IMG/VR virus record: IMGVR_UViG_3300001419_000001
Span: 13,397 to 67,122 of that record
Length of the DNA: 53,726 bases
Direction: 5' to 3' (one strand)
DNA from: a virus
Below are positions 13,104-39,052 of this stretch, in pieces. The notes beneath the pieces were generated by a model that saw only the letters and a program-made list of their open reading frames with translations, did no database searches and was not told where the DNA came from. Within the stretch, counting starts at the first letter, position 1, and each line of letters opens with the position of its first letter. A program made the translations under genes and the position numbers.

Positions 13104-13306
13104 GGAGATACTCCTCTAGATAAGAGTTCAATGTCAATGCGATCAATTTCTTGCTGCATTTCAGACAGAAACTCATTGGAATCTGGAAAATCGACAGGCA
13201 ATTCTTGAGCATTTGCCATTTCCTTTATCATAATAAACACATTCCGTGCAATCACAAGGGATTGCGTATCAAATTCTTCAAGATTTTCTGGAGGTTTAAG
13301 CATCAT
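13100..13306 (-). CDS. Hypothetical acidic 68-aa protein
   Basis: A 68-aa protein (MMLKPPENLEEFDTQSL start) with two probable helices, the second acidic (SNEFLSEMQQEIDRIDIELL). A second ATG follows the first directly, so the start could be either. It is the first protein gene after the tRNA-Lys/tRNA-Leu pair. No recognised family. Confidence 0.55.
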   Translation of the reverse strand: MMLKPPENLEEFDTQSLVIARNVFIMIKEMANAQELPVDFPDSNEFLSEMQQEIDRIDIELLSRGVSP

Positions 13307-13450: not shown

Positions 13451-13516
13451 GGTGGGACTCGAACCCACAACTTACGGATTAAAAGTCCGCTACTCTACCA
13501 ATTGAGTTACGAGACC
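13444..13516 (-). tRNA. tRNA-Lys (UUU)
   Basis: A 73-nt cloverleaf with acceptor GGTCTCG/CGGGACC, D arm ACTC/GAGT, anticodon stem GCGGA/TCCGT with loop CTTTTAA (UUU), and T arm GTGGG-TTCGAGT-CCCAC. CCA is not encoded. Its 3' acceptor strand plus discriminator overlap the 5' acceptor strand of tRNA-Leu by 7 nt. Confidence 0.9.
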
Positions 13517-13560
13517 GTACAGTTGAGGGTAGTTTTATTACCCACAATGCGTATTATTTA

Positions 13561-13848: not shown

Positions 13849-14028
13849 CTAAAATTGATATTCATTTAGACCAATTTCAAGAATTGGAGTGACATCATAT
13901 ATCTTTTCACTACCATTTGAAACTCGTTCAAGTTGGTCCTTGGTAAGAACTACAATGCAACAACCTTCCAACCCACTGAAAGTTTCACCATCATTCAATA
14001 CCACAACAGAAACAGTTTCATTATTCAC
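13849..14028 (-). CDS. 59-aa hypothetical protein, GTG start
   Basis: A short gene starting at GTG 14028 and coupled to the upstream basic gene by a GTGA overlap, with AAGGAG about 7 nt upstream. The product begins MNNETVSVVVLNDGETFSGL and continues GCCIVVLTKDQLE. An alternating hydrophobic strand pattern and Asn-Asp-Gly turn suggest a small beta protein. It stops 5 nt before tRNA-Arg. Function unknown. Confidence 0.65.
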   Translation of the reverse strand: MNNETVSVVVLNDGETFSGLEGCCIVVLTKDQLERVSNGSEKIYDVTPILEIGLNEYQF

Positions 14029-14777: not shown

Positions 14778-14807
14778 GGAACCTAGGGTATTTCTACCCT
14801 AGGCTCC
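14778..14807 (-). terminator. GNRA-loop terminator hairpin 1
   Basis: On the minus strand a 13-bp stem with one G-T pair (GGAGCCTAGGGTA with TACCCTAGGTTCC) encloses a GAAA loop, followed by TTTTCTT. It has the form of an intrinsic terminator and lies 54 nt before tRNA-Ile. Confidence 0.75.
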
Positions 14808-14978: not shown

Positions 14979-15006
14979 GAGCCTAGGGTATTTCTACCCT
15001 AGGCTC
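14979..15006 (-). terminator. GNRA-loop terminator hairpin 2
   Basis: A perfect 12-bp stem (GAGCCTAGGGTA/TACCCTAGGCTC) with a GAAA loop on the minus strand, nearly identical to hairpin 1 but followed by only a short T run. It lies 3' of the 69-aa gene ending at 15044. Confidence 0.65.
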
Positions 15007-15469: not shown

Positions 15470-15533
15470 GAAAGTACGCTAAAGTACAATTTAGGTACAG
15501 TCCGGGGTACCCTACGGTAGTGTAAACAGTATA

Positions 15534-15572
15534 GTAGGGTAACAGTAGGGTAATGTAGGGTAACGTAGGGTA
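15534..15572. repeat. Phased direct repeats, GTAGGGTA type (4 copies, 10-11 bp period)
   Basis: GTAGGGTA occurs at 15534, 15545, 15555 and 15565. The core is constant, with small changes in the 2-3 nt between copies, and lies about 65 bp from the CGGTAA array. Confidence 0.8.
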
Positions 15573-16130: not shown

Positions 16131-17921
16131 TTAGCAACCAAGGATGTGACGGGACTTGGCAAACCGCTTGCGGTCAGCACCCGGATAATTCAGGGGCGTG
16201 ACCTTTGAGGGAATCAGGATCTCACGATCCAAGAACTTCTGATCCACCCGACTGATGCAAGCCTTGAAGGCCTGCCGAGCCCATCGAGCGTGGGCGATGG
16301 GAGTTCCGATGGAGTCATGGATTGGCGCAATGCGAATCCCTGCCTCTGCCGCCATGAGAGCCATGAAGTGGATTGCACTAGCATCCACAGAGTGGATGAC
16401 ATTCGGGCCTGCCGCAGCATCTGAGGACGCTGCGTGAAGTGGCTGGAATGAGATTCGATGACGCTTGCCATCGAAGGTCACACTCACATCCCACGGCTTG
16501 GCATCCATGTCGACGACCATGCCGCGGTTGAAGACACGGCATCCCGATGGCGAAGTCCAGTTAAGGACTTGACCATCATTACGACGGTTACGAGATGCCT
16601 GCTTGATTGCCATCATGGAAGGACGAAGACGGCTGGTAAGACCAGCAGCCGCCTTGGACCCGAACAACGAAGTCTCGTATGCCCGAGCCACATCACTGGC
16701 AACACGAACTGCCAGAGACCATCCAAGAGCCTGCCACACACCAGCGTACCTCTCGTTGAGGTCCAACTTGGAGACCTTTTCAAGAGATCCCACTATGTAA
16801 TCACCAGCATTGTCCACATACTGGATTGGGCTGGTCTGCGGGTTCTTGAGAATTGCACCCCGAGTAAGCGAGGGGTTTGCTGCCGAGTAGATCATCGGAA
16901 CAGCAAACGTCTTGGCGGTCTTCCGATCAACGAACATCGGGTTGTCCCTGACATGAACAGGCAGGAGACGTGCCTCGTTGACGTAGGCAGACATTGCAGT
17001 GTACAACGACTGCGGCGAGTCTGAAGGGTAGAGGTTGGTGAGATGGCACAGAGCCTCGTCACCAGTGAACCAGCCATACCACGCTGGACCAGATGCACTC
17101 TGGTCCTGCTGGAGAATGTAGCCAGAACAACCCTCTTCCTTCATCTCGCGAATTGCCTCAGCAGCCCGCAATGCACAGAAGGGCTTGCTGTCCTTGCAGT
17201 CCCTGACAAACTTCACGGGATCTGCAAGGATGTCCTCGTAGTTGTCCTCCGTGACACCGTACTCCTTCTTGATGACTTCCAGAAAGATCTGGATATCATC
17301 GTCCGAAGCAGGCAACTTCTCAGCGAAGTCACACGACGCACGGTGGGCATCACCACCTTGATAGGAGGCAACGCCGCGCGAGTCAGTGTACAGACGATAG
17401 CGGAAGTCTGGGAACAATGGGAGGTAGTAATTACCCTCACCAAAGTTCGTGAACTCCTGAAGCATCAGGAGTTCCATTTGGTTCCGCTTGGGGTCAAAGA
17501 ACCCCTCAGCAGCCAGAGTCCGCATCGCCTGAAGCACCAACTTGTTCGGAGCGAACTCAGTCTCCGACAAGTACGTCACAGCATCCTTGAAGGCATCTGG
17601 CAAGTCAAGGTCCAGAACACCGTCAGGTGCCATCGACCGCCGCCTCGTGGCTGCGGCACTACGCTGAAGACGAGCCGTGGTCTTGCCGGTGGACTCGACA
17701 TCGTTGTTCCGAATGAACAACGATGAGTAGTTGTTACCAACTTCACCGGCCTCGTCGATCGCATCACTACCTGAGAGGGAGAACATGCTCAGGTTGCCAT
17801 CATCGAGACCCATCTGCAACAACTGCTGCAACCCATCGCGGTCATCGACGCCGGTATGTTCGGCGACCCGTTGCATGAACTTGGATGCACGCAACACATT
17901 GTTTAACAGGTATCTATACAT
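16131..17921 (-). CDS. Second, short single-subunit RNA polymerase (RNAP 2)
   Basis: A 596-aa protein with the T7 RNAP catalytic set in the right order: PDFRYRLY (D172, R174, R176; the usual Gly is Tyr175), motif A DQSASGPAW (D273), motif B R333-x3-K337-x7-Y345, GPNVIHSVDASAIH, and motif C IHDSIGT (D536). It is about 290 residues shorter than T7 RNAP; only about 170 residues precede the DxRxR motif, so most of the promoter-recognition region is absent or remodelled. G+C is clearly higher than in most of the window. It has GGAG 9 nt before the ATG and is the first protein gene after the structural and small basic genes, an early-gene position. It probably transcribes a different gene set from RNAP 1. 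Confidence 0.85.
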   Translation of the reverse strand: MYRYLLNNVLRASKFMQRVAEHTGVDDRDGLQQLLQMGLDDGNLSMFSLSGSDAIDEAGEVGNNYSSLFIRNNDVESTGKTTARLQRSAAATRRRSMAPDGVLDLDLPDAFKDAVTYLSETEFAPNKLVLQAMRTLAAEGFFDPKRNQMELLMLQEFTNFGEGNYYLPLFPDFRYRLYTDSRGVASYQGGDAHRASCDFAEKLPASDDDIQIFLEVIKKEYGVTEDNYEDILADPVKFVRDCKDSKPFCALRAAEAIREMKEEGCSGYILQQDQSASGPAWYGWFTGDEALCHLTNLYPSDSPQSLYTAMSAYVNEARLLPVHVRDNPMFVDRKTAKTFAVPMIYSAANPSLTRGAILKNPQTSPIQYVDNAGDYIVGSLEKVSKLDLNERYAGVWQALGWSLAVRVASDVARAYETSLFGSKAAAGLTSRLRPSMMAIKQASRNRRNDGQVLNWTSPSGCRVFNRGMVVDMDAKPWDVSVTFDGKRHRISFQPLHAASSDAAAGPNVIHSVDASAIHFMALMAAEAGIRIAPIHDSIGTPIAHARWARQAFKACISRVDQKFLDREILIPSKVTPLNYPGADRKRFAKSRHILGC

Positions 17922-18158
17922 GATACCAGTCTCCTAGTTGACCCTGTTGGTGATTGGGTTTGTGTTGGGTCAGACACAAGCCCTAAGTGCTGTAACAGTA
18001 CAGCCATGGCTCCCCTCTTGTGAGGGGAGCCGAGGTCACACTGTTGCCACCCACCAGCACAGTAGCATTGCTGGGGGGGTAAGGGGGGGTAACGATACCT
18101 CCCAACTTGTTACTCCCCCTCCGTAAATTCCTGACCCCCTAGTCGATTTTCTTTTTTA
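17922..18158. other. Non-coding region with G tracts and hairpin, candidate genome junction
   Basis: No gene was found. It holds a perfect 10-bp hairpin and two runs of seven G separated by TAA (about 18064-18090), then a T-rich stretch. It divides the last late-type genes from the first early-type gene, where a T7-like genome would have its ends or its first early promoter. Neither can be assigned from the sequence. Confidence 0.4.
18008..18031. terminator. Strong 10-bp hairpin, GGCTCCCCTC stem
   Basis: GGCTCCCCTC and GAGGGGAGCC form a perfect stem with a 4-nt loop. No T run follows on either strand, so it is at most a probable terminator. It lies between the small basic genes and RNAP 2. 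Confidence 0.45.
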
Positions 18159-18532: not shown

Positions 18533-18793
18533 TCAGCACGCCCACTTTCTTCTTGCCTTACATGCTCGTTTATCAGGAGTCTTTTTACAATCAATATTGA
18601 ATTTCTTGATTTGTCCTAGGTTGCGGGCACAGAAGGATTTCTTTCGTGGACCCCCTCCCGGCTGGGGTGGCTTGAGGTTGGAGCCTGTCTTTCGGTTGAT
18701 CATGGCTCTTCCCTTGGCGGTAAGCCCACCCTTGGGATCTTTACATTTGTTTCCGATATTGCAACCTTTCATTGCACCTTTCTTCTTTGCCAT
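18533..18793 (-). CDS. Small basic Cys-rich protein, DUF6321-like (first of three)
   Basis: An 86-aa protein beginning MAKKKGAMKGCNIGNKCKD, with GGLTAKGRAMINRKTGSNLK and PRKKSFCARN, the conserved core of a small family common in marine phages (DUF6321-like, from memory). Six cysteines and about 30% Lys/Arg. The ATG overlaps the stop of the 3946-aa gene by 1 nt, so it is co-expressed with the virion proteins. A structural or DNA-binding role is inferred from that. Confidence 0.75.
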   Translation of the reverse strand: MAKKKGAMKGCNIGNKCKDPKGGLTAKGRAMINRKTGSNLKPPQPGGGPRKKSFCARNLGQIKKFNIDCKKTPDKRACKARRKWAC

Positions 18794-21700
18794 TACGGTC
18801 CTCCTAACTGTTCTGGTGGTTTGGCAGGATTGATACTCCTTGGTCCCTCCATTGGGCTAGGAGTTGTGGTTGGTTGTGGCTGAGGTGCCGCAGGAGGCTC
18901 TGAGACGCCCTCTGCGGGACTTTGTAGGTTTTGGAGTAGTTCGGTAGCCTTGGGAGGCTGGAACGGCATAGGAGGCATCTGAGCGTCCATAAACGAAGGC
19001 ATTGGTTGGACTAGGTTCTTCATTCCTGTTGGGAATGCTTCGTTCAGTATTGCCCTAAATAGGCTTCTTTCTGTCTCTAACTGATTATCCATCAAGGTGT
19101 TACCTACATTTATGGGGCTTGTGTTCCTTCCTCTATTGGTTTTATTCTTGTTTTGTTTGAATTCTGGGTCAATGACTGATGCAATATAGTATCTTGTAAT
19201 TGGGTCAATAAATGGAATTAACCTAGCCGCAAAATCAGTAGCCTGCCCTAATGAAAATTCACCATCTCTATTGATGGCATCTTGACCAATTTGAATACTT
19301 TTTGCTACACCGCTTAAGATTGCGGCGGCTGCTGGAGGCAGTCCTGCCAAGGTCATGTCATAGATTGAGATTTTATCACCAGCAATGGTCTTGCCAGCAA
19401 TAATGGGAAGTAGTGATGCAACGATGCTTGGTAGCATTCTTGTCGTAAAGAATGGGTTTCGTGCAACAACGGTTGTGAGAAGCGTATAGTCTTTTATGTT
19501 TGGTCCTTCTTTCTTCCATCTTTCTATGTCATCTTCTGTAATGACACCAACAGCCCACAACAATGCAAGATTGTAAATAATATCAAAGAACCCTGCTGTT
19601 ATAACCTTGGTTGCAAGGATCCCACCTGTTGTTCTGCCATAGGATTCTAAGGCATGTTGGGTTACAAACAACTTTGGAAACGATCTGTACAGATTCATGA
19701 ATGATAGGATAGGACGACCTTCTGTCTGCCTATCCATTGTATTTCCTTCTGTAATAGCCTGTCTCATCAATGAGACTTGGAATTTACCAACAGCATTCAA
19801 TGCTTCGTATAGATCGTTCTTTGTCAGCCCACCAGAGTTTGGCATCTTGTCAAACAGTCTTGATGTTACAGATTCTTCAATCATTCTTTGGATTTCGCTG
19901 ATATCAAAGAACTCTCTTCCCAATATTCCAGTTTTCGAGATTCCGTTAAGTTCAGTTACAATGTACTTTAGAGCCTTGATTGTTTTTCGATCAAGCAAAC
20001 CAGACTCATGCATGTATTGGACAACCAGTTTTTCAGATCCCCAAAGATCCAAGATCCTAGTAGTTCCTACTTCTACTTCCAATCTCTTGTACATTTCTGG
20101 TCCTCTTGGACCATCATATTGTTCGATAAAATCAAGATACTTCTCTAATTTGTTGATTCTTCTAATCAATGCTACCTGTGCTTGTCGCATCATTGCGGCT
20201 CTTAATGCAGGTTCTACTATAAGATGAGAGTCTTTTATTCTTTTCCAAAAAGAATCAATAGCACCTTTTACCTTTATTGGTTTTGTTTTTTTGAATCCAT
20301 TTTGATCTAGACTGCTGACGGCTTCTTCTTCATCTTTAGTAATTAATTGATGTTCTAAGAATCCTCTTGTTGCTGTGTCGATATCGAACAAGGCTTGAGG
20401 GACAGATGTGAATATTGAATTGTTAAGCAATCTATTTCCAAGTTTTCGTGAGATGACATTTGTAAATAAGGGCAATATACCAGAGACCACATCTTTCATG
20501 AATGCTATGGGATTGCCTCCATAGATTGTGGTAACAACGGTACTTAATGTACCTTCGTTGATTAATGCTGCGGCGTTTCGGTTTGGACCCCATAGTGCAG
20601 TGGTAAAGAAGTCTGCTGCACGCAATCCAAAATTTTCTTCACCCGATCCTTGAGTTTCAATTACTCTAGTTGCAGCACCAATTGCAAGATCGTGTTTTCT
20701 CTGGACCTCATCCAATACACTATCCCAATCGGAATCTTGCTTTGCGCCTTTAATTGCTTCAATGAGGTTTGCAAAACTAACTCCCCTGACTCCAGACAGG
20801 TCTTGGATGGCTTTTCGGTTATAGGCAGATCTTGCCATTGTTCTTTCCATACCTACAATGATTGATTTTAGATCTGTTGAAAACCCATTTCTAAGGATGC
20901 TTCGTTCGTTTGGATTCAAACCACTTGCCTCGATAAAGATATCCTTGGCAGTTACATCCAATGACTGGGCATTAGGCATAACAGTACTATGACCTTGTGA
21001 GTTTATTAAATTAAGTACTCTCAACCTAATAGGAGAATTCTTTTTGTCAAGAACATTGTTTTTAAAATACTTTGGTGGTTTTGTAGAACCATAAAAGATG
21101 TATGGCAGTCTGCCTCTTACAATATCTTGTTCTTGTCGTACCGCCGATTCACTAACTTGATTGTTTAAGTTACCCTGTAGGTATTTAATTATCGTATTTC
21201 TTTGACTTGAATTTAAAGATTTAAAGATAGTACTATATGATTTACCAGAGTTTGCTTGTCTTAGGATTCTAGTTGCGGCTTCTAAAAGATGCTCTTTGGC
21301 GGCTTGCCAATTGCTGTTTGTTGTGTTTAACTTTAAGGAATACTTAAACGAACTAAGAGTCAAAGTGGTATTTGGGTTCTTTTCTTTGTATAACTCAAAA
21401 GCAAAAGACTCAACTTCATCGAGAATAAGTCTTTGTGCTTCATTTAGTTTGATTATCTCACTTTGGATTTTATTGTAGAATTCCTCAATTGGGCTGTTGT
21501 TTGAATATGCATCGCTGATACTAAACATGCCACCGCTCAGGTAGAGGGAGTATACATCTACCATGCCCTCATCTTTCATGTTGTCTTCTACCTTTTTGGT
21601 GTATAGTTTGGACAATGCTTCTTCAAATCTACCAGCACTTTCCGAATCTTTCTCAAAGAATGTGTTGTTTATTCTCAAAGCAATCATATCTTCAGGCGAG

Positions 21701-24700
21701 ACAAAGCTTGAAGTGTAGGTTTCATACTCTACAGCAAGATCTACAAAGTTTGAAATGTTGCTTGCATATGTTTCAGCATACTGTTTGGCAAGTTCAAACA
21801 TCTCATTTGTAAGATCTTCACCAATTGGTATTTGATTTCTATCAGATGGCTTTCCTAAAAGCATATAATAGAAGGCTGCACTGCGAATTAATTGTGCTTC
21901 TCTTTGGTTATAGGAGTTTTTAATTCTTTCTGACATCAATACAACAGGTCTTGACCATTGTTCAATGTAGTTTTTGTCTTGAAGAATGCCCCCAACCTTT
22001 TCACTGAAGATTCCACCACCCTTAACCGTGTTCATAATGAAGCCAAGTGCAACCAAAATTGACTCGGCAGACGCATAGGTAAGGTTTGCACTGCTACCAC
22101 CACCCAAACCTCCGCCAAGTTTACCTTGTTCTCCGACTTTTCTTGCTGTTCCGGTCAAGAATGTTTCAATAATCCAGTTTCTTACTCTTGTTGCCTTGGG
22201 CATATCCCTTACAAGTCTTGAAATTACAGAAAGATTATCTGGTCTTACGCCTCTAATCTTTGAGATTCTCTCCAAAACAAAGGTAGCAAGTGCTATTCTT
22301 TCATCTTTGCTTCTTGGTTTTCTTGTAATCTCAACTTGACCAGTCTCACTACCATATTGAACCAGTCTATTTATGGTTTCGATGTACTCTTTTGTGTCCA
22401 AACCTAGAATTGTATTTGCTGGTAGTTCAGCCAACTCGTTTTTGTAATTTATAAGTGTGGCTTGCTCCTCTTCACTAAGATATTCCACCCTTGATTCTAG
22501 TGCATCCACTGTATTGTACTTGCCCAAAAGGTCAACAATTTTATCACTGTCTATTATTCCGGTTCCTCGCTCCAATTCTACAAGAGGAGTGCCGAATGTT
22601 CCTGTTATATTGTCAACCGCAGCCCTAGATGTGCTGTATGTATTGCCAAAGTTAAACATGACTTCAACAAGGTTGTCCATATACTCCATTGCTTTGCGAT
22701 TTGATTGTCTAAATACCTGCATTCTTTGTGTTATGGACGAGGCAATTCTTTTTATTCTATTGAATGCTCGCTCCCACCAACTGGTTGCCTCATCAACAAC
22801 ATTGTATTTTTCTCTGAGTTTGTTAATATTGTTGATGACACTCTTGTTATTGATGGTTCTTGATATTAAAACAAATGCTCCCCACTCTGCAAGAAATTCT
22901 TCTGCATTTGTGGTATAGTGATCAAGCAATGCATTTATTTCACCCTTGTCTCCAGCATACATGGAAGTTACCATGTCGGTAATTGCTTCTTTTCCTTCTT
23001 TGGTTCTGAATGCTGCAATAAATCCACGATATGCTTCACTTTCGGTTTCCAAATGCCTGAGCCTTGCAATGTGTGAAATCTCATGTGCCATGACTTCCAA
23101 TGCTTCAGGTACGGCTCTACGCTTTAATAGTTGTGGGTTGAGTTTGATTACAAACCTATCGCCATATCTCTGACTTAAACCAGCACGCTCAAGGCTAGGG
23201 TCTAAAACAATTGATAAGTTGTTTGCAAACTCCTTGTTGTGAGTTAGAATGATTCCAAACATGCCTCTATACAACTCGGCAGTTTCTTCTGTTATTGCTC
23301 CTTGTTGAACAAGTGCAGAGATTTGTATTTCAATATGTTGTCCATTTGATTGGAATGCATCAGTAAGACCGTCGTCTTCGACAAGTGTCTCAATATTGTT
23401 GTCTGTTAACAAGATGCCAGCCTCTTGGGTGTATTGTTTGTTGGCATTCTCAAGGGCTTGCTTTGCGAGTTGAACTTCTTCTCTGCTAGAGGTATCCTCA
23501 ACACCAATAGCCTTAAGAACCTTTGGACTAATGTTTATAACTTCAATTGGTCCATTCAACTCAACAAATCTTTTGGCTTGATGGGAGAATTTGTTTCTAG
23601 GTACATCTCTTGTAACAGCGTTCAAATAATCATTTATAAATAAAGAAGCATCTCGATAAATCTTTTCAAACTGCTTATTATCCATAGCAGATCCAACATA
23701 AGATCTTAATCTTTGTAGTCTTGCTTCTCTTTCTTCAACTTGAGACATGATGATGATTGCTGGAATAAGATACTTGTTGTCGCTTGTTAATAGAGTTTCA
23801 AGTCTTTCTGCTTCTTCTGTAAGTCCATACATCCTTGCCGTCTCAATTGCTCTTGAGATTTTACCCTGCCATGCTCTATCAAATGCGGTGCCTCTTGGGT
23901 CAGCATCTTTTCCTGCAACATAAAAACCAGCATCATATACTTCAACAGGCAAACCAAAATCGCCACTCATTCCCACATTGTATGTTGTTCTTAATGGAGA
24001 AGTAGAGCGAGAGTGCAGAATTGAAAGGATATCCATTTCATCAGCATAGGCCATTCTCTGTGTTTCGTAGAATCGTCTTCGTTCTGCATTCATAAACACC
24101 ATATTCTCATTGTCTACCATGCCAATATCTGTTCCAAGTGCTGTTGCTAGTTCTGTGTTATACAACAATACTTGGTTTTGAAGTTGGGTAAACATGTTTT
24201 GCAAATCTTCTGGTGTTAGTTTGTAGATTGTATTGCCATTGGTTCGTGAAGTATCGAACCTAGGCATTCCACCATCCCGTCCCCTTGCTTTAGGATTCTT
24301 AGCATTGTCAAAATCTATTTTATTTCCAATTTGAGTTTCTTGTGTAACTTCATCAATGAACAAGTAAAGATCAAACTCTTCTCTTCTTTGCGTTCTATCC
24401 GATGTGAAGATCTCTCTAAATACTGCTTGCTGATGTTCTTTTGGTACAGAACTCAATAGTACAAAGCCATTACCATCCTTTTCCAGCGATTTAAAGTTTT
24501 CTGGGTCTACCTTTTTCATGTACTCTGTTGCTATTTTTCTGCCTTCAGTTTCATATACAACATTGTAAATCATCTGTAAGGAGTCGATACTCTGCACTGT
24601 AAGAGTTGTTATTCTTGTAGAGCGTTCGTCTGATGAAGGTTCTCCAGAAGCAACGATGTTGTTTGTTGGCTCAAGACCTAGTGTAATTGGCTTAAGGACA

Positions 24701-27700
24701 TTGACTCCTCTTTTAGCAAAATAAAACAACATGTCAATGTAATGTTTTTCTTGTAATGTCTTGCCCTCAATACCAATCATCTTGCCAAATTCAAGATAAG
24801 ATCTTGATTCAGCCGATACGCTGTCGTGAAATGACCATAGTTGGGTCAATGCTTGATACATGTTCAATGCGTGTGACTGAGCCAATACATATTCTTTTCT
24901 TTCTTGTCCCGGCTTGTTTTTAAGTTTAGCCATTTTTCTAACGTAAGGACTGATTGCAAGATTGTTGATTTTCCAAATGGTATATAGTTTTGCCCAGTTC
25001 TGTTCTTCTACAAGATCTTTATGACCATGGGTCATGCCAAATTTTTCAAGAGTGTATTGAAGGTTGTTGGCTCTCAACTCCAATCGTCTAGATGTGTTTC
25101 CAGTTGTCATCTCATAGATGCCATCAACTGGTGTGGGATAGACATATGGAGCCTTGGAGTTTTTGTACCTATTGGCATATCCTCTTGCTTCAGATGGAAT
25201 AACATCATTGACAGAAGTTATCTCTTTGTCCATTCTAGCTACCTTGTCTGCTTTGGCATCTTGGATCAACTTATTATAGAACATCTGTTGAAGTGACATG
25301 ATGCCTCTTTCCTGCCAAGGAATGGCTGCATACTCTGGCCTGAATGCACCAAGCCCCTTGATGCTTTTTTCTGATCCGGGGTTGTATTCAATATCCATTG
25401 CAGTATTAAGTGTTCTAGATGGGTCAACCAAGAATCGGATTGCATTCTTAAGCAAGCCACCATTGCTTCTTCTTAAATCAATTGCGTCTTTTGATAAACT
25501 TGGTTCATTGCGAATATAGTCAATATATGATTGGTCTTCTCTAGTTGATCGCTCATACCACTCTTGCATAAATCCTTCTCTTGTTTCGGATTCAGCCATG
25601 TTGTAGTTACCAAACTTTGGTGCATATCGTGGTGATAGTTGCATAGCAATATGTCTTGCCATAAGTTTTTGCACCTCAAGTTCAGCCTTATCTCTACTCA
25701 ATTTGCTAAGATTGTTTTTATTGAATCCCCACATGGCATACTTCTGATCATCTTTTCCACCGGGGGTATTTTCTCTTTCGACTGATGACAGTTCTGAGTT
25801 GATAGGTTGGAACTTATGCCCAACAAAATACCCACGCCCACCACTTGAATCAAACCCCATTGTAAAATAGACATTGAAATCTTCAAAACCAAGAATATCC
25901 GATTCCTCAATGCGACGGCCAAGGATATCGGAATGTTCTTGTATTCTACCTCTTATGCCATCATTCTCGATACCTCTTAATCTAAAGGGAACTCTTTGCA
26001 ATGCATTCAATGCTATTAGAGTAGGTGTTGTCTTATACCATTCTTCTTTGCCCATTAGAATAATATTAAGTTTCCTTGCTTGCTCATCTCCCAGTTTAAT
26101 AAGCCCATCTTCAGTTTTTTCTAAACCACCAACAAACTCTATTGCTTTATCAATTCTTTCTTGATATTCGGCTCTTACTGTTTTAATATCAAGTTTTCTA
26201 ATTTCAGCAATAAATTTAATTCTTTCTTCAATGGCTTCTTGTAAGAAATTTAAGGAGAACATTCTTTCTGCGGTTATAGTGTAACCATTTTCCTTAGCCT
26301 TTTGTCTAAGATTTTTTGTCCAATCTTTTTGGTATACATCCCGCAATTCTGTTGATATTGCCGCTGCTAATTGTTGTCTTTGCTCAGAAGTAACACCACC
26401 CAATGCTTCATCTAGAATATTGAATTGAAGATATGCTTTGGTGTTCATCAAGTGTTGAGCAATAAAATCTGCATCAACTCCCGTAAGTCCTACTGGTTTG
26501 GATTCAGACATCCAATTTTCAATACCCTCTCTAACTGCTTTCAACCCACCAGAATATAGTCTAGCAATAACTGCATTCTTAAAACCTTCTCTTGCTTCTT
26601 GAGCAGATTCTGTTAAAAACTCTTTTAGTCTTCGTGCCTGCTCCGTTCCATTTGTATCTTTCTGTGAGATATATACCTTTTCAATTTGATCAAGACTATC
26701 ACGCAAGAGAGTTACGGCTTCTTGGTATCTATCTTTTGCTTCATCCTCAAGACCAATATCTCTTAACATGTCATCCAACCTAGATCCATCTTTGTCAAGG
26801 TACATCAAAGACAAAGCAGCCATGTGGTGGGCACCGTTCATGTTGAAGTCAAAGTAATTACTTCTACTAAAACCACCCTCTTTATATGCTTTGATTCCTC
26901 TTTCAAGTGATTGATATAAAATATCTTCGCCTAAAAATGGATATGTTTTGACATGAGCAAACAATGGACCCATACCCGAAAGAACTGCGGTTGCTGACAA
27001 CGACCCCGGAGAAAGTGCATCTTCCTTGAACATTCTATTTTTGGTATTTTCATCCAAGAATATTTTTGCTCCGGGTGCATATGTCATTGAGTCGTGTTGC
27101 CAAAGAAGTAGCAACTCTGGCATATCCAATAGTGCTTCAATTGTCCTTGCCCTAAGATCTTCAATTGTTGGTAGTTTATTAGATAAAGCCCTGTTATTTG
27201 TATTTGGATTCAAGCCCATTGATAACAGATCTGGTCTTCTATCGGTTAAGACTTCATCTGGATCTTCTGTGAGATTCTTGTAGGCATTGATAACAGACTC
27301 TGGATCGTCGATGTCGGAATTAAGAATATGTTGAATGCGTTGTCTTAATCTGTAATCTACAAATGCAGATTCAATGTCTGGCAATGCCCTTGGGAAAATA
27401 TGATGGACCTCACCAACAACCGGTGCCCTAAAGATAAGAGACTGATATACCTTCCTATCTGGTTTACCGCCTGATGACAATAGGTGTCTATTAGCCCTAG
27501 CACTTATTTCTTCACTAGGTTTAGAATTTAATGATGGTTTAAATCCTTGCCGGTGGTTTGTAATAATTTGTGCAATACCACGACCAAGGCTTGTTGCTAC
27601 GGCATAGTCAATGTTTCCATTTCCAAAATCAACAATATCAAAGTCTTTCAAATCACTGTACTTCTTGATTGTGGCAATGAGGAATTCCATAATGTAGTCA

Positions 27701-30633
27701 TCTTCTCGGTTTGTTGATTCTTGCGGCTTGAAGTTCTCTGCTTCTGCAAGTTCAGCAAGTCTTTTCTGATAGGATCTACCTAGTTGTTCCTTGAATCCAT
27801 CAACAACAGCACTGATGTATTGGTTCCTTTGGTCTTTTTCATTCCCTTCTGCAAACTCAATGCCCGGAATCAATCCGTTTTTATCTGCTCCTATAATCCC
27901 AATTGGAAGTCTACTGTCGTTGCTTAGATAAGTACTCTTGTTGATTTCCTTAGCAGCCTCCGCATTTAACTTGGAAATCTTAACGGCTGTCATGTATGCC
28001 TGTTGTTCTGGCGTAAGACCTTCTTTAATAACCTTAGATAGAACTCTTCCAAAGGCTTCAGTGTTTGGCGCAAATCTTAAGGATGCAGCCATAAGAGCCA
28101 TTACAATTGGTTGGGCTTTGTCAAGATCTATGACCGTTTTGTTGTTTTCTTCTTGTCCAAGGAAACTATCAAATGCCGTTGCCATTGTTCTACCTAATGC
28201 TGTTGTAGTCCACTGTGCAACAGATTCAGATATGCCATTATAGGTAGATGAGTGTTGTGTAACGGATGCCCAAGTAGGCACTAGTTCCTCAATAGTTACA
28301 GCATAGACGTTCCTGTTGGTGTGTCTGACTCTGACAGAAGCACCGTTTCTTTCCTGCATGGCCCTGAACACTTGAATGTTTAATGCTCCATCAGCCAGTG
28401 AATATGTTTCCAGTCTTTGTCTTGCCTGATCAGAAGTTACTTTGTTGATGTCCTCGACAATTATTTCCTTTTCTTCTGCGGACAATACTTCATCTGGTAT
28501 TGCAGAAAGATCTTCAATGGTTACTGTCTGATCAAGAGATCTTTTCTTCAACAATGGAGGCATGTAGTTATCTTCTGTCTTAAACTCAGATACACCTACT
28601 GCTGATGCCACATTGCCCAACTTATACATCTGGCTAGTGGCATTTGTTGAGTTCTCCGTTGTGCTTCGGAATGCCCTCATGTTTTGGAATATATCGAAAC
28701 TACGAAGCATGATCCTAGATGCCATTTCGGTTGCTTCTCGTGTTCCAATCTTTTGAGCAATGGCATATAGATCAAATGCGTTGCCGTTATATGTTACCAA
28801 AGCCATGCCTTGGTTTTGTTTTGATTCAATCTCAACCAATAGATCCATCAACTCTTCGCTGGTAAATGCCACACCATCTGCACTTGATCGAACAGAACTA
28901 GGATCTTTCTCCCTGCCCTCTTCTGTAAAGATGACGGTGTGGATGTTTTTATCACCATCCAAATATGTTTCAAGACCCAATGAAAAGACTTTTGTGTTCT
29001 TCTTCCAGTTTACTGGATCGGTAAACTCTGGGGATGATAGCACATCTTCATCCAATCCTAGTTCTTTTAGCAGAGTTTTTGTTATACTGAGAATCTCATC
29101 ATATGACATGTCTCCAGCACTGGTATCCGAATCTCTCCACTGAATTGCCTTCTTAAACAATATAGTAGCATCTACGTCATCAATCTTTGGGATTTGGCTG
29201 ATGATCTTGGCAATAAATGCTATATCGACAAACCTTCCAAATTGGGGCAGTCTTCGATATGTTTCCATTCGAGATAGCAATGACTTTAATGCTCGATAGA
29301 GAACCTCTCCGTCTTTTTCTCCAAGGACATTCTTGCTTGGGATCTTGCCCGGTGTAGAATCTCTTATGCTTTCTGCCAGTGACTTGTCAGGTATCAGTAG
29401 CATCTGTCCATCTGTTTCGTCAATGATCCCCTCTATTGTTGGATCATTCAGTGATGAAGCAAGTTCATCAAGGGATTCCTCATCTGCAAAATCAGTATCC
29501 GCAATGAATTTTTCTCTAGATCCTGCATACTCAAAGGAAAGGCTCTTCCACTCTTTGAACAACTCATTGACCTTTTTTCTGGTAAGCGGCTTGTTTTTGT
29601 CCACCCGTTGCATTACAAAATTCTCACCCAATACTTTAGCAAGCAAGGCTGATTCAATTGTATTACTTTCCTTGAACATTTCTTCAATGACATCTTCCCT
29701 GAATGAAATGTCTCTCTTCATTTCTTCTATGTCTTTGGCTATGCTTGCTAGAGTTTGTGGAACACTGTCAATGAATGAGTCCAAGGAAACTCCTCGGTAG
29801 ATACCAAAGTCTTTTGACAACTGATCAATAAGATCTCGCTTTTGTTTGATCAATTCTGCCAATGCTTTTCTTTCTGATGGGTTTCTTTGTTTAAATTGCT
29901 CTACTACTTTATTAGACTTCTTTTCCAGTTCTTTTATTTTCTTTACAATCTCTGACGCTTGCTTCTTTAATGCTCCCTTTCGTTTAGAATTTTTTTCAGA
30001 GTCAATTTTATTATTGATTCTTTGTAATCTTTTGCCTAACTTAACCAACTCTAGTCTGTTTTCGTTGATTGCTTTAGGCTTGTTTTGATTTAGAAGCATT
30101 ACAATTGTGTCGATATCTTGATTTAGATCATCCAATTTCAACTCTAGTTCATTAAGTTTAGCATTGTCTTGCCCTCGTCTGTTATTTGCCTCGGCTCTTT
30201 CTCTTGCTTTTCTAAGAAGAGTTGCTAAACGGTTTGCCTTTACCTCATCTCCAGAATCACGATATCGTTGGATCATGCTCTCTGCTGTTTCAAACCTAGT
30301 TATTTTTGGTTGTGGACCCCCTCTGTTTGATTTCTTATAGACCAACACTCTAAGTCTTTCAGTCTCACCTTGTGAAAGAATACTAGAAATTCTTGGTATA
30401 CCGGCATCAAAGCCTCGTCTTGCCTTTTCAATCAGTCCATCCAATTCTCGTTGCTCATCTGCATTCAGCCCTTTGGGTTGCACCAATCTAGCATATCCAG
30501 CAGGATCGCTAAGTGCTGCCTCCACATGGGCAAGGTCTGCTGCAATTTGATTTGCATTCAATCCTCTGCCTTCTAGTTGAGTGCGTCTTTCATCAAGAAT
30601 TTTTTGTATAAGTTCTGGTGAGCATGGGTCCAT
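18793..30633 (-). CDS. Giant 3946-aa virion-type protein with RNAP-like, metallopeptidase-like and nuclease-like segments
   Basis: An intact 11.8-kb frame, AAGGAG 6 nt before the ATG, following the internal-protein genes. Residues 140-270 are strongly charged coiled coil. VFSLGLETY (about 550) with VTYNGNAFDLYA (about 613) resembles Exo I/II of DnaQ-type exonucleases. VHHIFPR (H1077-H1078) resembles an HNH start. DFNMNGAHHMAAL (D1262, H1270) and R1348-x3-K1352-x7-Y1360 match single-subunit RNAP motifs A and B 90 residues apart (94 in T7); FDSSGG (D1595) is a possible motif C lacking the usual His. AHEISH (H2517-H2521) is a zinc-metallopeptidase motif. The C-terminal 300 residues have several hydrophobic helices and a Pro/Gln-rich tail. 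It is probably packaged and ejected, like N4 vRNAP or other large polyvalent phage proteins. Every enzymatic label is tentative. Confidence 0.75.
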   Translation of the reverse strand: MDPCSPELIQKILDERRTQLEGRGLNANQIAADLAHVEAALSDPAGYARLVQPKGLNADEQRELDGLIEKARRGFDAGIPRISSILSQGETERLRVLVYKKSNRGGPQPKITRFETAESMIQRYRDSGDEVKANRLATLLRKARERAEANNRRGQDNAKLNELELKLDDLNQDIDTIVMLLNQNKPKAINENRLELVKLGKRLQRINNKIDSEKNSKRKGALKKQASEIVKKIKELEKKSNKVVEQFKQRNPSERKALAELIKQKRDLIDQLSKDFGIYRGVSLDSFIDSVPQTLASIAKDIEEMKRDISFREDVIEEMFKESNTIESALLAKVLGENFVMQRVDKNKPLTRKKVNELFKEWKSLSFEYAGSREKFIADTDFADEESLDELASSLNDPTIEGIIDETDGQMLLIPDKSLAESIRDSTPGKIPSKNVLGEKDGEVLYRALKSLLSRMETYRRLPQFGRFVDIAFIAKIISQIPKIDDVDATILFKKAIQWRDSDTSAGDMSYDEILSITKTLLKELGLDEDVLSSPEFTDPVNWKKNTKVFSLGLETYLDGDKNIHTVIFTEEGREKDPSSVRSSADGVAFTSEELMDLLVEIESKQNQGMALVTYNGNAFDLYAIAQKIGTREATEMASRIMLRSFDIFQNMRAFRSTTENSTNATSQMYKLGNVASAVGVSEFKTEDNYMPPLLKKRSLDQTVTIEDLSAIPDEVLSAEEKEIIVEDINKVTSDQARQRLETYSLADGALNIQVFRAMQERNGASVRVRHTNRNVYAVTIEELVPTWASVTQHSSTYNGISESVAQWTTTALGRTMATAFDSFLGQEENNKTVIDLDKAQPIVMALMAASLRFAPNTEAFGRVLSKVIKEGLTPEQQAYMTAVKISKLNAEAAKEINKSTYLSNDSRLPIGIIGADKNGLIPGIEFAEGNEKDQRNQYISAVVDGFKEQLGRSYQKRLAELAEAENFKPQESTNREDDYIMEFLIATIKKYSDLKDFDIVDFGNGNIDYAVATSLGRGIAQIITNHRQGFKPSLNSKPSEEISARANRHLLSSGGKPDRKVYQSLIFRAPVVGEVHHIFPRALPDIESAFVDYRLRQRIQHILNSDIDDPESVINAYKNLTEDPDEVLTDRRPDLLSMGLNPNTNNRALSNKLPTIEDLRARTIEALLDMPELLLLWQHDSMTYAPGAKIFLDENTKNRMFKEDALSPGSLSATAVLSGMGPLFAHVKTYPFLGEDILYQSLERGIKAYKEGGFSRSNYFDFNMNGAHHMAALSLMYLDKDGSRLDDMLRDIGLEDEAKDRYQEAVTLLRDSLDQIEKVYISQKDTNGTEQARRLKEFLTESAQEAREGFKNAVIARLYSGGLKAVREGIENWMSESKPVGLTGVDADFIAQHLMNTKAYLQFNILDEALGGVTSEQRQQLAAAISTELRDVYQKDWTKNLRQKAKENGYTITAERMFSLNFLQEAIEERIKFIAEIRKLDIKTVRAEYQERIDKAIEFVGGLEKTEDGLIKLGDEQARKLNIILMGKEEWYKTTPTLIALNALQRVPFRLRGIENDGIRGRIQEHSDILGRRIEESDILGFEDFNVYFTMGFDSSGGRGYFVGHKFQPINSELSSVERENTPGGKDDQKYAMWGFNKNNLSKLSRDKAELEVQKLMARHIAMQLSPRYAPKFGNYNMAESETREGFMQEWYERSTREDQSYIDYIRNEPSLSKDAIDLRRSNGGLLKNAIRFLVDPSRTLNTAMDIEYNPGSEKSIKGLGAFRPEYAAIPWQERGIMSLQQMFYNKLIQDAKADKVARMDKEITSVNDVIPSEARGYANRYKNSKAPYVYPTPVDGIYEMTTGNTSRRLELRANNLQYTLEKFGMTHGHKDLVEEQNWAKLYTIWKINNLAISPYVRKMAKLKNKPGQERKEYVLAQSHALNMYQALTQLWSFHDSVSAESRSYLEFGKMIGIEGKTLQEKHYIDMLFYFAKRGVNVLKPITLGLEPTNNIVASGEPSSDERSTRITTLTVQSIDSLQMIYNVVYETEGRKIATEYMKKVDPENFKSLEKDGNGFVLLSSVPKEHQQAVFREIFTSDRTQRREEFDLYLFIDEVTQETQIGNKIDFDNAKNPKARGRDGGMPRFDTSRTNGNTIYKLTPEDLQNMFTQLQNQVLLYNTELATALGTDIGMVDNENMVFMNAERRRFYETQRMAYADEMDILSILHSRSTSPLRTTYNVGMSGDFGLPVEVYDAGFYVAGKDADPRGTAFDRAWQGKISRAIETARMYGLTEEAERLETLLTSDNKYLIPAIIIMSQVEEREARLQRLRSYVGSAMDNKQFEKIYRDASLFINDYLNAVTRDVPRNKFSHQAKRFVELNGPIEVINISPKVLKAIGVEDTSSREEVQLAKQALENANKQYTQEAGILLTDNNIETLVEDDGLTDAFQSNGQHIEIQISALVQQGAITEETAELYRGMFGIILTHNKEFANNLSIVLDPSLERAGLSQRYGDRFVIKLNPQLLKRRAVPEALEVMAHEISHIARLRHLETESEAYRGFIAAFRTKEGKEAITDMVTSMYAGDKGEINALLDHYTTNAEEFLAEWGAFVLISRTINNKSVINNINKLREKYNVVDEATSWWERAFNRIKRIASSITQRMQVFRQSNRKAMEYMDNLVEVMFNFGNTYSTSRAAVDNITGTFGTPLVELERGTGIIDSDKIVDLLGKYNTVDALESRVEYLSEEEQATLINYKNELAELPANTILGLDTKEYIETINRLVQYGSETGQVEITRKPRSKDERIALATFVLERISKIRGVRPDNLSVISRLVRDMPKATRVRNWIIETFLTGTARKVGEQGKLGGGLGGGSSANLTYASAESILVALGFIMNTVKGGGIFSEKVGGILQDKNYIEQWSRPVVLMSERIKNSYNQREAQLIRSAAFYYMLLGKPSDRNQIPIGEDLTNEMFELAKQYAETYASNISNFVDLAVEYETYTSSFVSPEDMIALRINNTFFEKDSESAGRFEEALSKLYTKKVEDNMKDEGMVDVYSLYLSGGMFSISDAYSNNSPIEEFYNKIQSEIIKLNEAQRLILDEVESFAFELYKEKNPNTTLTLSSFKYSLKLNTTNSNWQAAKEHLLEAATRILRQANSGKSYSTIFKSLNSSQRNTIIKYLQGNLNNQVSESAVRQEQDIVRGRLPYIFYGSTKPPKYFKNNVLDKKNSPIRLRVLNLINSQGHSTVMPNAQSLDVTAKDIFIEASGLNPNERSILRNGFSTDLKSIIVGMERTMARSAYNRKAIQDLSGVRGVSFANLIEAIKGAKQDSDWDSVLDEVQRKHDLAIGAATRVIETQGSGEENFGLRAADFFTTALWGPNRNAAALINEGTLSTVVTTIYGGNPIAFMKDVVSGILPLFTNVISRKLGNRLLNNSIFTSVPQALFDIDTATRGFLEHQLITKDEEEAVSSLDQNGFKKTKPIKVKGAIDSFWKRIKDSHLIVEPALRAAMMRQAQVALIRRINKLEKYLDFIEQYDGPRGPEMYKRLEVEVGTTRILDLWGSEKLVVQYMHESGLLDRKTIKALKYIVTELNGISKTGILGREFFDISEIQRMIEESVTSRLFDKMPNSGGLTKNDLYEALNAVGKFQVSLMRQAITEGNTMDRQTEGRPILSFMNLYRSFPKLFVTQHALESYGRTTGGILATKVITAGFFDIIYNLALLWAVGVITEDDIERWKKEGPNIKDYTLLTTVVARNPFFTTRMLPSIVASLLPIIAGKTIAGDKISIYDMTLAGLPPAAAAILSGVAKSIQIGQDAINRDGEFSLGQATDFAARLIPFIDPITRYYIASVIDPEFKQNKNKTNRGRNTSPINVGNTLMDNQLETERSLFRAILNEAFPTGMKNLVQPMPSFMDAQMPPMPFQPPKATELLQNLQSPAEGVSEPPAAPQPQPTTTPSPMEGPRSINPAKPPEQLGGP

Positions 30634-30645
30634 ACTATCTCCTTG

Positions 30646-33345
30646 TTAACAATCCGTTCGTTTTCTTGCATCAGCAATAAACTGATCAAAGTCAGATTGA
30701 GGTTCTGTTTTAGTTAGATCAATTGGTGGGGTATCTGTTTCCGAAACACCTTCATCTACAGGTGTTGTGATTTGTTCTAAGGGTAATGTAGGCGTACCCT
30801 CGGCTTGTTCACTTGCTGGTGGTTTAGGAGTCTCAGGAGCAGCCTCAGGAGCAGCCTCAGGAGCAGCCTCAGGAGCAGCCTCAGGAGCAGCCTCAGGAGC
30901 AGCCTCAGGAGCAGCCTCAGGAGCAGCCTCAGGAGCAGGTCTAGTCGCTTGTGTTGCTTCCCTTTCTTCTATCAATCTTCTTACAATACTTAATGTATTT
31001 TTGTGTATGTTGGCATTTAGATTTTCAACCATGGTAATGCCTTCTTTAGCCAACTCTGTATCAATAACACCATCATCATCTCTGAAGATATCCAAGAACT
31101 CCAAGGCTTGTGCATTTTCATTATAACTATTAAGATCTATTTTTAAGTCTGGTAGATTTGTCTTTTCTCTTGCTGATTTATATATTTCAGTAATTCTTTC
31201 TGCTGCTTCTGTGATTGCTTCAGGATCAGCACTAATCTCTTCATAAGTATCTTGAATCAATTCTTTAAAGGCATCTATATCTGTTGATGCCAATCTCATA
31301 AGGTCGGTTTCTGAGATGCCTTTTTCCTCAAGTTTATTTCTCATAATGAACTCAATTGAAATAGCCCTTTGTAGAGCCTTCATGTCTTCATCACCAACAC
31401 GAATGTTTCTTTCTCTTAGACGATCTACTGTATGGGTATGCAGAAGAATGGCTGCTTCTTCTGTTGTCAATTGCACGCCTTCTGGGACAGAATCAAACAC
31501 TGAACTGATTATGGAATTGAGATCAATGTTGACACCCTTGTTGGCTGCTTGTCGTTGAAGGGCTGACTGCAATCGTATTACACTTAATGGCATTGACTTA
31601 TCCCCAGTCATCTGCTGCCAAGCGAAGTGTTGATGGAGTTGAAGGAATGCATTGAAATACGTCTCTTGGATAACCTCAATTGGTACATCCTTCACATTGA
31701 GGTTTGCTTGTAACTCAATCATTTGCTTGAGAGCAGGGTCTATTTTTCTGGTTGCCTTATCCCAAAGTGCTGGACCAATTTGATCAGCACCTATTCCTTC
31801 AATTGCCTGTCCCAATCCCAAGTTGATTCCCCTGAAAACTTTTCCAAATACTATCTGACCAACACCCTCTTCAAGCATTTCACCCCAAAGTCTTCCACTG
31901 CTCCATTCCATATTGTCTGTAATCTGGTTTTGTATATTGTACAAGGCACCTTCTACAAGACCTTGCCCAAAGTCAGTGAAAACCGAAGTCATGAACTTAC
32001 CCGCAGTAACCTCTGATCCCCATTGTACACCTTCAACAGCCAGTCTTCTTGATAGGATACTGTTGGTTACAATATAACCCCAGTTACTTGGGACCATGAG
32101 TGCTTGGTATGTTCTTAGATTCTGCAACAATGAGTTTGTTTTCTTTGTGGCATTGGCTAGATCTCTGGCATTGTCAGCCATCCTAGCAGCACTGTATACT
32201 CCTCTGCTTAAAGATCTTGCTTTGTTTGCTCTGACTAGTGTTGTAACGGCTCCTACGCCTGCGTAGCCGCCTGCTGATGCTAGGGTAAGGGCAAGTTCTA
32301 CAGGCATGTCGGCAGATCTAAAACTCTGAATGATGAACTGTTTTGCAAAATCTAATTTATTCTCAACCCAGTTTTGATCTCTTGCTCTAGATGAAAGTAT
32401 TGCTTGGATGTGGGACATATCCACGGCTTCATTGATAGCGTATCTAAACTCCCAATGGTTTGGTGTCCTTAACAATTGTTCTACATTTACTCCAGCAACA
32501 TTTACTAGATATGAAGAGTAGTCTGGGTGGTATTCTTGCATGAGTTCCCAAGCCTTTTTAGCATCCCATCCTTCTTGTTTTTGCTCCCCAAATACTTGAG
32601 TTGGAAGGATCCCCTCTTCGCCAAACAAGGCTCTAATATTTTCAAATAAAAAGAAGTTTGTATCTACATCTTCCATTCCCTCTCGTCTATTATCGACAAA
32701 AGGAATGTAGTCAAGGATCTTTGCCCAAGTTGAATCATAGGCAGTTGATCGTTTTCTAAATGCTTCTTCTTCTGGGGTTAAGCGAGGAAACAACTCTGGG
32801 TTCTCTCTCTCAAGAGTTCCAAAGTATTGTTCTCCTATTGTGTATAATCTAGTAGTTCTATAGATAGATGGGGTTTCAACAGCAGATAAAGCAAGTTGGT
32901 TGAGTCTTCCGTAGGATGCTTGATCAAACGCTTGCTGCGGATCAATATCTCTAGAAACAAGGTTTCCCGTCTCTAAATCGAAACCAATAACAGGAGCCAG
33001 TGGACCAAGGTCTTTGCGTAGTTTCTTTTGGTTTTCTGTTAATCCACCAGAATTGTCTAACATTTTGTTTATAAAATCATATGATTCTTGTCTTGACTGG
33101 GCTTGTTGTTCTTTCATCTCTTGTTCTAATTGAGATCTTTGAACCATACTGGGATCTACGCTTTCATAAAAACTAGTATAAACAACAAGGTCTGAAACAA
33201 ATTTATTAAACTCTTCCATATTCTCATCTGTTTCTTCTGCTATGGATCCAGCCATCATATCGTATATTCTTTGGTTTTTTTCCTGCCTAAGCCTTTCTTG
33301 CTCAGATGGCTCGTTCTTCATTTTCCACCAGTCATATAAACTCAT
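30646..33345 (-). CDS. 899-aa probable internal virion protein with AAPE repeats
   Basis: An 899-aa protein between the muramidase-bearing internal protein (ATGA overlap) and the giant gene (12-nt gap), an arrangement that suggests a T7-like core or ejection protein. The first 150 residues are charged helices; residues about 345-500 include Ala/Leu-rich stretches (LALTLASAGGYAGVGAV) that might meet membrane. Near residues 803-838 is a run of AAPE repeats followed by a Pro/Thr-rich acidic tail, probably a flexible linker. No enzyme motif seen. Confidence 0.7.
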   Translation of the reverse strand: MSLYDWWKMKNEPSEQERLRQEKNQRIYDMMAGSIAEETDENMEEFNKFVSDLVVYTSFYESVDPSMVQRSQLEQEMKEQQAQSRQESYDFINKMLDNSGGLTENQKKLRKDLGPLAPVIGFDLETGNLVSRDIDPQQAFDQASYGRLNQLALSAVETPSIYRTTRLYTIGEQYFGTLERENPELFPRLTPEEEAFRKRSTAYDSTWAKILDYIPFVDNRREGMEDVDTNFFLFENIRALFGEEGILPTQVFGEQKQEGWDAKKAWELMQEYHPDYSSYLVNVAGVNVEQLLRTPNHWEFRYAINEAVDMSHIQAILSSRARDQNWVENKLDFAKQFIIQSFRSADMPVELALTLASAGGYAGVGAVTTLVRANKARSLSRGVYSAARMADNARDLANATKKTNSLLQNLRTYQALMVPSNWGYIVTNSILSRRLAVEGVQWGSEVTAGKFMTSVFTDFGQGLVEGALYNIQNQITDNMEWSSGRLWGEMLEEGVGQIVFGKVFRGINLGLGQAIEGIGADQIGPALWDKATRKIDPALKQMIELQANLNVKDVPIEVIQETYFNAFLQLHQHFAWQQMTGDKSMPLSVIRLQSALQRQAANKGVNIDLNSIISSVFDSVPEGVQLTTEEAAILLHTHTVDRLRERNIRVGDEDMKALQRAISIEFIMRNKLEEKGISETDLMRLASTDIDAFKELIQDTYEEISADPEAITEAAERITEIYKSAREKTNLPDLKIDLNSYNENAQALEFLDIFRDDDGVIDTELAKEGITMVENLNANIHKNTLSIVRRLIEEREATQATRPAPEAAPEAAPEAAPEAAPEAAPEAAPEAAPEAAPETPKPPASEQAEGTPTLPLEQITTPVDEGVSETDTPPIDLTKTEPQSDFDQFIADARKRTDC
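30833..30938. repeat. 12-bp tandem repeat coding for AAPE
   Basis: Eight exact copies of TCAGGAGCAGCC (plus strand) plus a partial ninth, in frame in the 899-aa gene. All copies are identical at the DNA level, which suggests recent slippage or gene conversion; the length probably varies between isolates. Confidence 0.95.
33242..33266. repeat. 25-bp exact repeat, copy B (copy A at 12878-12902)
   Basis: Identical over 25 bp to 12878-12902 and in the same orientation. It lies in the N-terminal coding part of the 899-aa gene, where it encodes IYDMMAGSI in a frame different from that used at copy A. Confidence 0.8.
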
Positions 33346-38371: not shown

Positions 38372-39052
38372 TTAAGGTCTTGCTAGGTAATATGGTGCAG
38401 GTGTTTGACCAACTTGTGGTGCTGATGTGCCCATGCCGGAAATAGAGGCATACGCGCCTAGACCTGACGCAAGACCACCTGCTGTTCCTGCAATAATATT
38501 CATTGCCCCATAGGATTCTCCTATTGGCTTTTGACTGGATAACTGTAGGTTGGGCATGATTAAATCAAAGCGTTGTTGATTCATCATATTCTCCATTTGT
38601 CTCTTGATATTGTTTTCTGTTTGTTTATAGTTTCTATCTGACTGCATTGTTTGATTTAGGAAGTTTGCACTTTGTGCTAGGCTCAATGCCTTGGCTGTGC
38701 CTCCAGATATTTTGGATGCTGCTAGTTGATTACCTAATGCACCTTTCATTTGTCTGTAGGTTTTGCTCATCTCCCCATCTGCAAATGATTTTTGGAGGCT
38801 AAGTGCTTTAAGTGAATCGCTCTCAAAAAGATATGCTGCTCGTTGAATGGCAGCATTTCGTTCCATTTGTTGTTGCTGGGCATAAGAGGCATTGAATAAT
38901 TGCTTACCATTGTTGATGGCCTTTTGCATTTCTCCCTGAATCCAAGCCTGTCGTGCTTGTTGCTCTCTTCTTCTAGCAGCAGAATTGCCTGTAATACCTT
39001 GAAAAATACCGCTTACTATGCCAGCACCTAGTGCAATTGCTCCTAAATCCAT
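38372..39052 (-). CDS. Internal virion protein (T7 gp14-like)
   Basis: A 226-aa protein with a hydrophobic Gly/Ala-rich N-terminus (LGAIALGAGIVSGIFQGI), a long Gln-rich helical middle (RREQQARQAWIQGEMQKA onward), and a Gly-rich C-terminus (GTAGGLASGLGAYASISG). This profile and its place, just after terminase and before the large internal proteins, fit gp14, which forms the outer-membrane part of the ejection channel in T7. GGAGG lies 7 nt before the ATG. Confidence 0.75.
   Translation of the reverse strand: MDLGAIALGAGIVSGIFQGITGNSAARRREQQARQAWIQGEMQKAINNGKQLFNASYAQQQQMERNAAIQRAAYLFESDSLKALSLQKSFADGEMSKTYRQMKGALGNQLAASKISGGTAKALSLAQSANFLNQTMQSDRNYKQTENNIKRQMENMMNQQRFDLIMPNLQLSSQKPIGESYGAMNIIAGTAGGLASGLGAYASISGMGTSAPQVGQTPAPYYLARP

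Follow-up and report, generated by a model that had tools for sequence, protein, structure and literature searches.

A candidate virion RNA polymerase domain of a highly diverged type in a giant protein of a T7-like phage

Giant virion RNA polymerases (vRNAPs) of the single-subunit type have been described as a hallmark of the Schitoviridae (PMC12633501). The virus record IMGVR_UViG_3300001419_000001 (67,122 bases) encodes a protein of 3946 aa, inside which an original prediction placed a possible RNA polymerase (RNAP) domain, and the question raised by this locus is whether a phage of another kind may carry such an enzyme in its virion. The window, i.e. the whole stretch of DNA that was analysed, comprises 53,726 nucleotides (positions 13,397 to 67,122 of the record) and contains the following genes of interest:

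7798-10230, minus strand: RNAP 1, 810 aa, T7-type (PF00940, E 1.4e-83)
16131-17921, minus strand: RNAP 2, 596 aa, T7-type (PF00940, E 3e-14), adjoining the giant gene
18793-30633, minus strand: giant-protein gene, an open frame of 3946 aa read from 30633 to 18793
30646-33345, minus strand: protein of 899 aa encoded upstream of the giant gene, by its position probably an ejection protein, with synteny in relatives L002 and L003
33342-38360, minus strand: 1672-aa protein, probable ejection protein judged by position, with synteny in the same two relatives
38372-39052, minus strand: gp14-like internal virion protein (phrog_805, E 0.0029)

The genome carries a T7-like set of genes for the head-tail connector (phrog_449), terminase large subunit and tail tubular proteins, as well as T7-like replication genes (primase-helicase, DNA polymerase, exonuclease and ribonucleotide reductase). 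By these genes, this environmental phage counts as T7-like, and its genome is not that of a schitovirus. The giant gene comes after the gp14-like gene and the genes of the 1672-aa and 899-aa proteins, an order that agrees with its predicted placing among ejected internal proteins. The 899-aa protein matched no family; the C-terminal stretch of the 1672-aa protein (EEGF...TVGHGHRLDG) appears lysozyme-like by eye and gave no match in Pfam. The giant protein contains a single cysteine, at position 4, and this near-lack of Cys, taken with the gene order, points to a protein that is probably carried in the virion and injected from it.

Besides the giant candidate the phage encodes two T7-type RNAPs (810 and 596 aa), and in L004 and L029 the giant gene likewise has an RNAP 2-type neighbour, of 586 and 575 aa, respectively. 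RNAP 2 has no recognisable N-terminal domain and reads DFRYR where DxxGR is expected. Directly after the giant gene lie small basic Cys-containing proteins (18533-18793, minus strand, and the short ORFs that follow), whose DNA is nearly identical in this phage and L029, whereas the giant proteins of the two share only 33%; a recent exchange is possible.

Relatives of the giant protein were sought with full-protein, regional and five-row queries of viral contigs, by scans of genome contigs and by tblastn of isolated phages. This revealed four relatives in IMG/VR (identity of about 52% for L002, L003 and L004, and 33% for L024) besides one identical contig, and no others in viral contigs, genome contigs or isolated phages. 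Three other viral contigs encode homologues of 3983-3992 aa, and one partial copy has 3874 aa. All family comparisons described below therefore concern five sequences (the giant of the window plus L002, L003, L004 and L024). The candidate catalytic sites are located as follows:

26812-26862, minus strand: motif A, residues 1258-1274, with the catalytic candidate D1262
26725-26733, minus strand: D-x-Y site D1301-R-Y1303, between motifs A and B
26545-26592, minus strand: motif B, residues 1348-1363, with R1348, K1352 and Y1360
25828-25878, minus strand: motif C candidate, residues 1586-1602, with D1595

The predicted residues D1262 (DFNMNGAHHMAAL), R1348/K1352/Y1360 (REGFKNAVIARLY) and D1595 (GFDSSGG) are all present at these positions, and the distances quoted in their support proved right, both from the motif A Asp to the motif B Lys (90 in the giant, 94 in T7, 72 in the 810-aa RNAP and 111 in N4) and from this Lys to the Asp of motif C (243 in the giant, 281 in N4). 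The giant has a single instance of D-x4-G-x2-H and a single one of R-x3-K-x7-Y (chance expectation 0.13 and 0.54, respectively), and both patterns are found at a suitable distance in two of 2000 shuffles of the protein. The prediction had been made to depend on conservation of the motif residues in homologues, and D1262, K1352, Y1360 and D1595 turned out to be invariant in all five sequences. The same applies to (i) M1265, N1266, G1267, H1269, H1270, A1272 and A1273 around motif A, (ii) D1301-R1302-Y1303, (iii) R1348, A1354, I1356, R1358 and G1363 around motif B, and (iv) G1598, R1600 and Y1602 around motif C. The His of motif C, said to be missing, is indeed absent from the copy in the window, but L024, the most distant homologue, has it as the only one of the five; its stretch FSFGHDTFGERFY contains HDTFG. 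Compared with the palm strand of known RNAPs, the residues preceding D1262 (SRSNYF) are more polar. Two other sites were considered for motif C and rejected: H1936-D1937 (FHDS), which is FHQ in the distant homologue and has a poor matrix score, and, on the assumption of a permuted palm, WQHDS (1178-1182), which is invariant but scores -1.8.

For comparison with chance, matrices of motifs A, B and C were built from 11 T7-like RNAPs and 13 N4-family vRNAPs, with the giant family left out. Over the whole family alignment of 3946 columns, the best ordered A-B-C chain was exactly 1262/1348/1595, with a score of 10.5 that was equalled or exceeded in only 2 of 3000 column shuffles; among all positions, the three sites ranked 1, 2 and 1 for motifs A, B and C, respectively. 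The families of the 1672-aa and 899-aa proteins, used as negative controls, scored -7.6 and -3.6 as against 10.5, and the reversed giant alignment gave -3.3 (with the first version of the matrix, in which the sequence weights differed slightly). With a matrix of T7-like RNAPs only, the same chain was again the best (9 of 1000 shuffles were as good). A matrix of N4 vRNAPs only located A and B (rank 1 for motif B) and placed the motif C site at rank 71, with a chain that was not significant (269 of 1000 shuffles), and single sequences of the giant family likewise gave no significant chain score. As a yardstick, the T7-only matrix yielded 18.6 for the N4 family and 6.7 for the giant family; thus, the resemblance of the giant to T7 RNAPs is much weaker than that of N4.

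Profile comparison with hhalign pointed to the same region. Residues 1160-1620 matched the N4 RNAP profile with P = 6e-4 and a probability of 28%, a P value to be read as about 0.01 after correction, since several windows were tried. The score of 39.9 was not reached by any of 150 column shuffles (17.7 +/- 2.8), and the reversed region gave P = 0.39. In this alignment DRY fell on DLY of N4 and R1348/K1352/Y1360 on R666/K670/Y678; the pairing around motifs A and C was shifted and uninformative, and D1595 did not fall on D951 of N4. Against the T7-like RNAPs the best place lay in the same region (P of about 0.02), with D1262 on D537 of T7 and DRY on DIY. A full-length comparison with four sequences was not significant. 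Neither Pfam nor PHROGs models of RNAP matched the giant, and the Pfam RNAP models matched none of the five members; the models of N4 vRNAP (PF21894, PF21769, PF21867 and PF21624) recognised N4 and none of the five. A PDB sequence search with a profile of the palm gave no match. AlphaFold2 models built from the five sequences reached a pLDDT of 42 (residues 770-1800) and 44 (a narrower region with L024 as the query), which is too low to judge a right-hand fold; these low-confidence models are helical.

The T/DxxGR motif, regarded from the outset as a weak point, remains one, with two imperfect candidates only (R1018 and R1097):

27544-27594, minus strand: TSLGR1018 with Q1029-G1030; G1017, R1018, Q1029 and G1030 invariant, matrix score poor
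27343-27357, minus strand: D1093-Y-R-L-R1097; D, L and R invariant, picked by a four-motif chain with a low score

Across the five sequences the first position of TSLGR1018 is T, D, D, N or Q, so that two homologues read DSLGR, with QG at +11. Two further sites were discarded: TYAPG-K (1184-1190), which is lost in the distant homologue, and DSSGGR1600, a weak hhalign match that would fall after motif B and where L024 has HDTFG.

Two other enzyme-like domains were recognised in the giant protein:

28354-29001, minus strand: DEDDy exonuclease-like domain, residues ~545-760 (Pfam RNase_H_2 in 5/5 members, best E 1e-8)
22714-23196, minus strand: zincin metallopeptidase-like domain, residues ~2480-2640, with HEISH at 2517-2521 (SprT-like in 4/5 members)

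In the former, the DEDDy-type residues E555, N616, D621, Y744 and D748 are invariant in the five sequences. The first Asp is replaced by Gly553 in the window's copy only and is Asp in the four homologues, which makes a catalytic loss in the window's copy likely. The SprT-like matches have a best E of 3e-4 and lie below the Pfam cut-off; the motif HE[IL][ST]H is invariant, as are H2517, E2518, H2521 and E2583. The zincin domain sits downstream of the RNAP-like region, with HExxH about 920 residues after motif C. Features of this kind are familiar from N4-type vRNAPs, which have a zincin domain downstream and almost no Cys (PMC5512222, PMC12633501), and in its predicted domain order and its composition the giant is N4-like. 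The zincin alone is nevertheless weak evidence for a vRNAP, because no other domain is so common in polyvalent proteins generally (PMC5512222), and lack of Cys is common to other internal virion proteins (PMC10747016). As in polyvalent proteins, several unrelated enzyme-like domains (exonuclease-like and zincin-like), predicted here from the sequence, occur in one polypeptide.

The reading that we prefer, with a probability of roughly 0.6, is that residues ~1000-1750 form a very diverged single-subunit RNAP domain of the T7/N4 superfamily, within a packed and ejected protein that would transcribe the first phage genes. The predicted virion RNAP is partly supported, by the conservation of motifs A, B and C, by their forming the best chain and by the hhalign matches, but not by any curated RNAP model or PDB match, nor by a perfect T/DxxGR. 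We regard the giant as a candidate virion RNAP; it would represent a new and highly diverged type and would work in the manner of the N4 enzyme. It is not filed under the N4 vRNAPs, because the curated models of that family do not match it and its genome is not of the schitovirus type.

The principal competing explanation, which we consider rather unlikely, is that the giant is a T7 gp16-like ejection ('polyvalent') protein that contains an exonuclease-like and a zincin domain and lacks a polymerase, the host RNAP starting transcription and RNAP 1 and RNAP 2 continuing it. The match to motifs A, B and C would then reflect chance combined with strong conservation of a region that is unrelated and mostly helical. 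Such a protein would be expected where the gene lies, in the position of T7 gp16 in a T7-like genome, and would fit the frequency of zincins in polyvalent proteins and of Cys-poor internal virion proteins noted above, the helical predictions of both low-confidence models and the weak scores of single sequences. It accounts poorly for a chain matched by so few of the 3000 shuffles and for two independent RNAP profiles that peak at one place.

A family A DNA polymerase-like domain, working with the upstream DEDDy exonuclease-like domain in repair or in the start of replication of the entering DNA, appears improbable. The position of the exonuclease-like domain would suit it, and with a DNA polymerase matrix motif B scored 12.3 and ranked 1. 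However, motif A lacks the steric-gate Glu of family A DNA polymerases (Gly at +5; rank 40 with the same matrix), motif C lacks the Glu of HDE (Ser/Thr after the Asp; rank 790), and hhalign against phage DNA polymerases aligned motif B alone, within the shuffle range. Moreover, the first exonuclease Asp is lost in the window's copy and the phage already has a DNA polymerase. The Gly at +5 of motif A and the Ser/Thr after the motif C Asp therefore favour the RNAP reading. Still more remote is an RNAP-derived but catalytically dead domain with a structural or DNA-binding role in the ejectosome; the very high divergence, the unconvincing T/DxxGR and the likely loss of catalysis in the giant's exonuclease-like domain would accord with it, but the four key residues D1262, K1352, Y1360 and D1595 have been retained by every member of the family.

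If the giant is a virion RNAP, it would be packed with the ejection proteins and enter the cell with the DNA; its RNAP domain would transcribe the first genes to enter, probably including RNAP 2, and the zincin domain might process the giant polypeptide or a target. For the giant, the analysis shows the sequence and its conservation, the order of motifs A, B and C and a significant match at the family level; we infer the right-hand fold, catalytic activity, virion packaging and target genes. Upstream of RNAP 2 a conserved hairpin was found, with further copies in relatives:

17994-18045 of the window, minus strand: conserved directional hairpin, present four times in the L004 contig and four times in that of L024
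12110-12159, 12302-12349, 12617-12668 and ~13141-13192 of L004: hairpin copies
13163-13218, 13507-13556, ~13937-13990 and 14247-14294 of L029: hairpin copies

The hairpins have arms of 23-26 nt with the core GGCTCCCC..GGGGAGCC and mostly a GCAA loop, followed by ACAGCA; they stand upstream of RNAP 2, and two relatives have them ahead of several short early ORFs as well. No Rfam family matches them. Their pairing, with compensatory and G-U pairs, and their loops (GCAA or TACG) are RNA-like, which suggests that they act as RNA, for instance in a leader or as an RNase III site, rather than as a DNA hairpin promoter of the N4 type; hence, they were not counted as evidence. Several short inverted repeats of the type GAGCCTAGGGTA..TACCCTAGGCTC were also noticed near tRNA genes (window positions 14778-14807, 14979-15006 and 15508-15552).

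More tentatively, this T7-like lineage could begin infection with an injected RNAP of its own and then use two further T7-type RNAPs, i.e. a three-polymerase cascade outside the Schitoviridae, with an exonuclease-like domain in the injected enzyme. If the virion RNAP reading is true, the phage would deliver an enzyme of its own for transcription to the cell, like N4. A second, highly diverged vRNAP in a T7-like genome would link ejection proteins of the T7 gp16 type with vRNAPs of the N4 type, hint at the origin of vRNAPs and provide a new enzyme.

Among known systems, the giant resembles N4 vRNAP (gp50) and the other schitovirus vRNAPs in being a giant protein of the ejected type (3500 aa in N4; ejection is deduced here from gene order), in motifs A and B with matching spacing (the hhalign match with uncorrected P = 6e-4), and in a downstream zincin HExxH, a large C-terminal part and almost no Cys (PMC12633501). 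It differs in matching none of the N4 RNAP Pfam models, in the distance of HExxH from motif C (~920 residues), in an extra exonuclease-like domain and in a genome that is T7-like, not that of a schitovirus. With T7-type RNAPs, including RNAP 1 and RNAP 2, it shares D-x4-G-x2-H, D-x-Y and R-x3-K-x7-Y, and HDTFG in L024, whereas RNAP 1 and RNAP 2 score ~95 with the matrices as against 10.5 for the giant family; the giant also has no PF00940 match, and its candidate domain is embedded in 3946 aa. Like T7 gp16 (internal virion protein D), it is the large last member of an ejection-protein set in a T7-like genome, but it has about three times the length of that protein, which measures 1268 aa in pelagiphage HTVC109P. 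Polyvalent proteins (PMC5512222) are likewise giant phage proteins that unite a zincin with several enzyme-like domains of unrelated kinds, although a combination of exonuclease-like, RNAP-like and zincin domains at the size of the giant was not found described in the literature examined. A vRNAP outside the Schitoviridae has also been proposed for podophage StenR_269 (PMC10747016); it was argued there solely from size, helicity and lack of Cys, whereas the candidate catalytic motifs of the giant are conserved and were tested by sequence.
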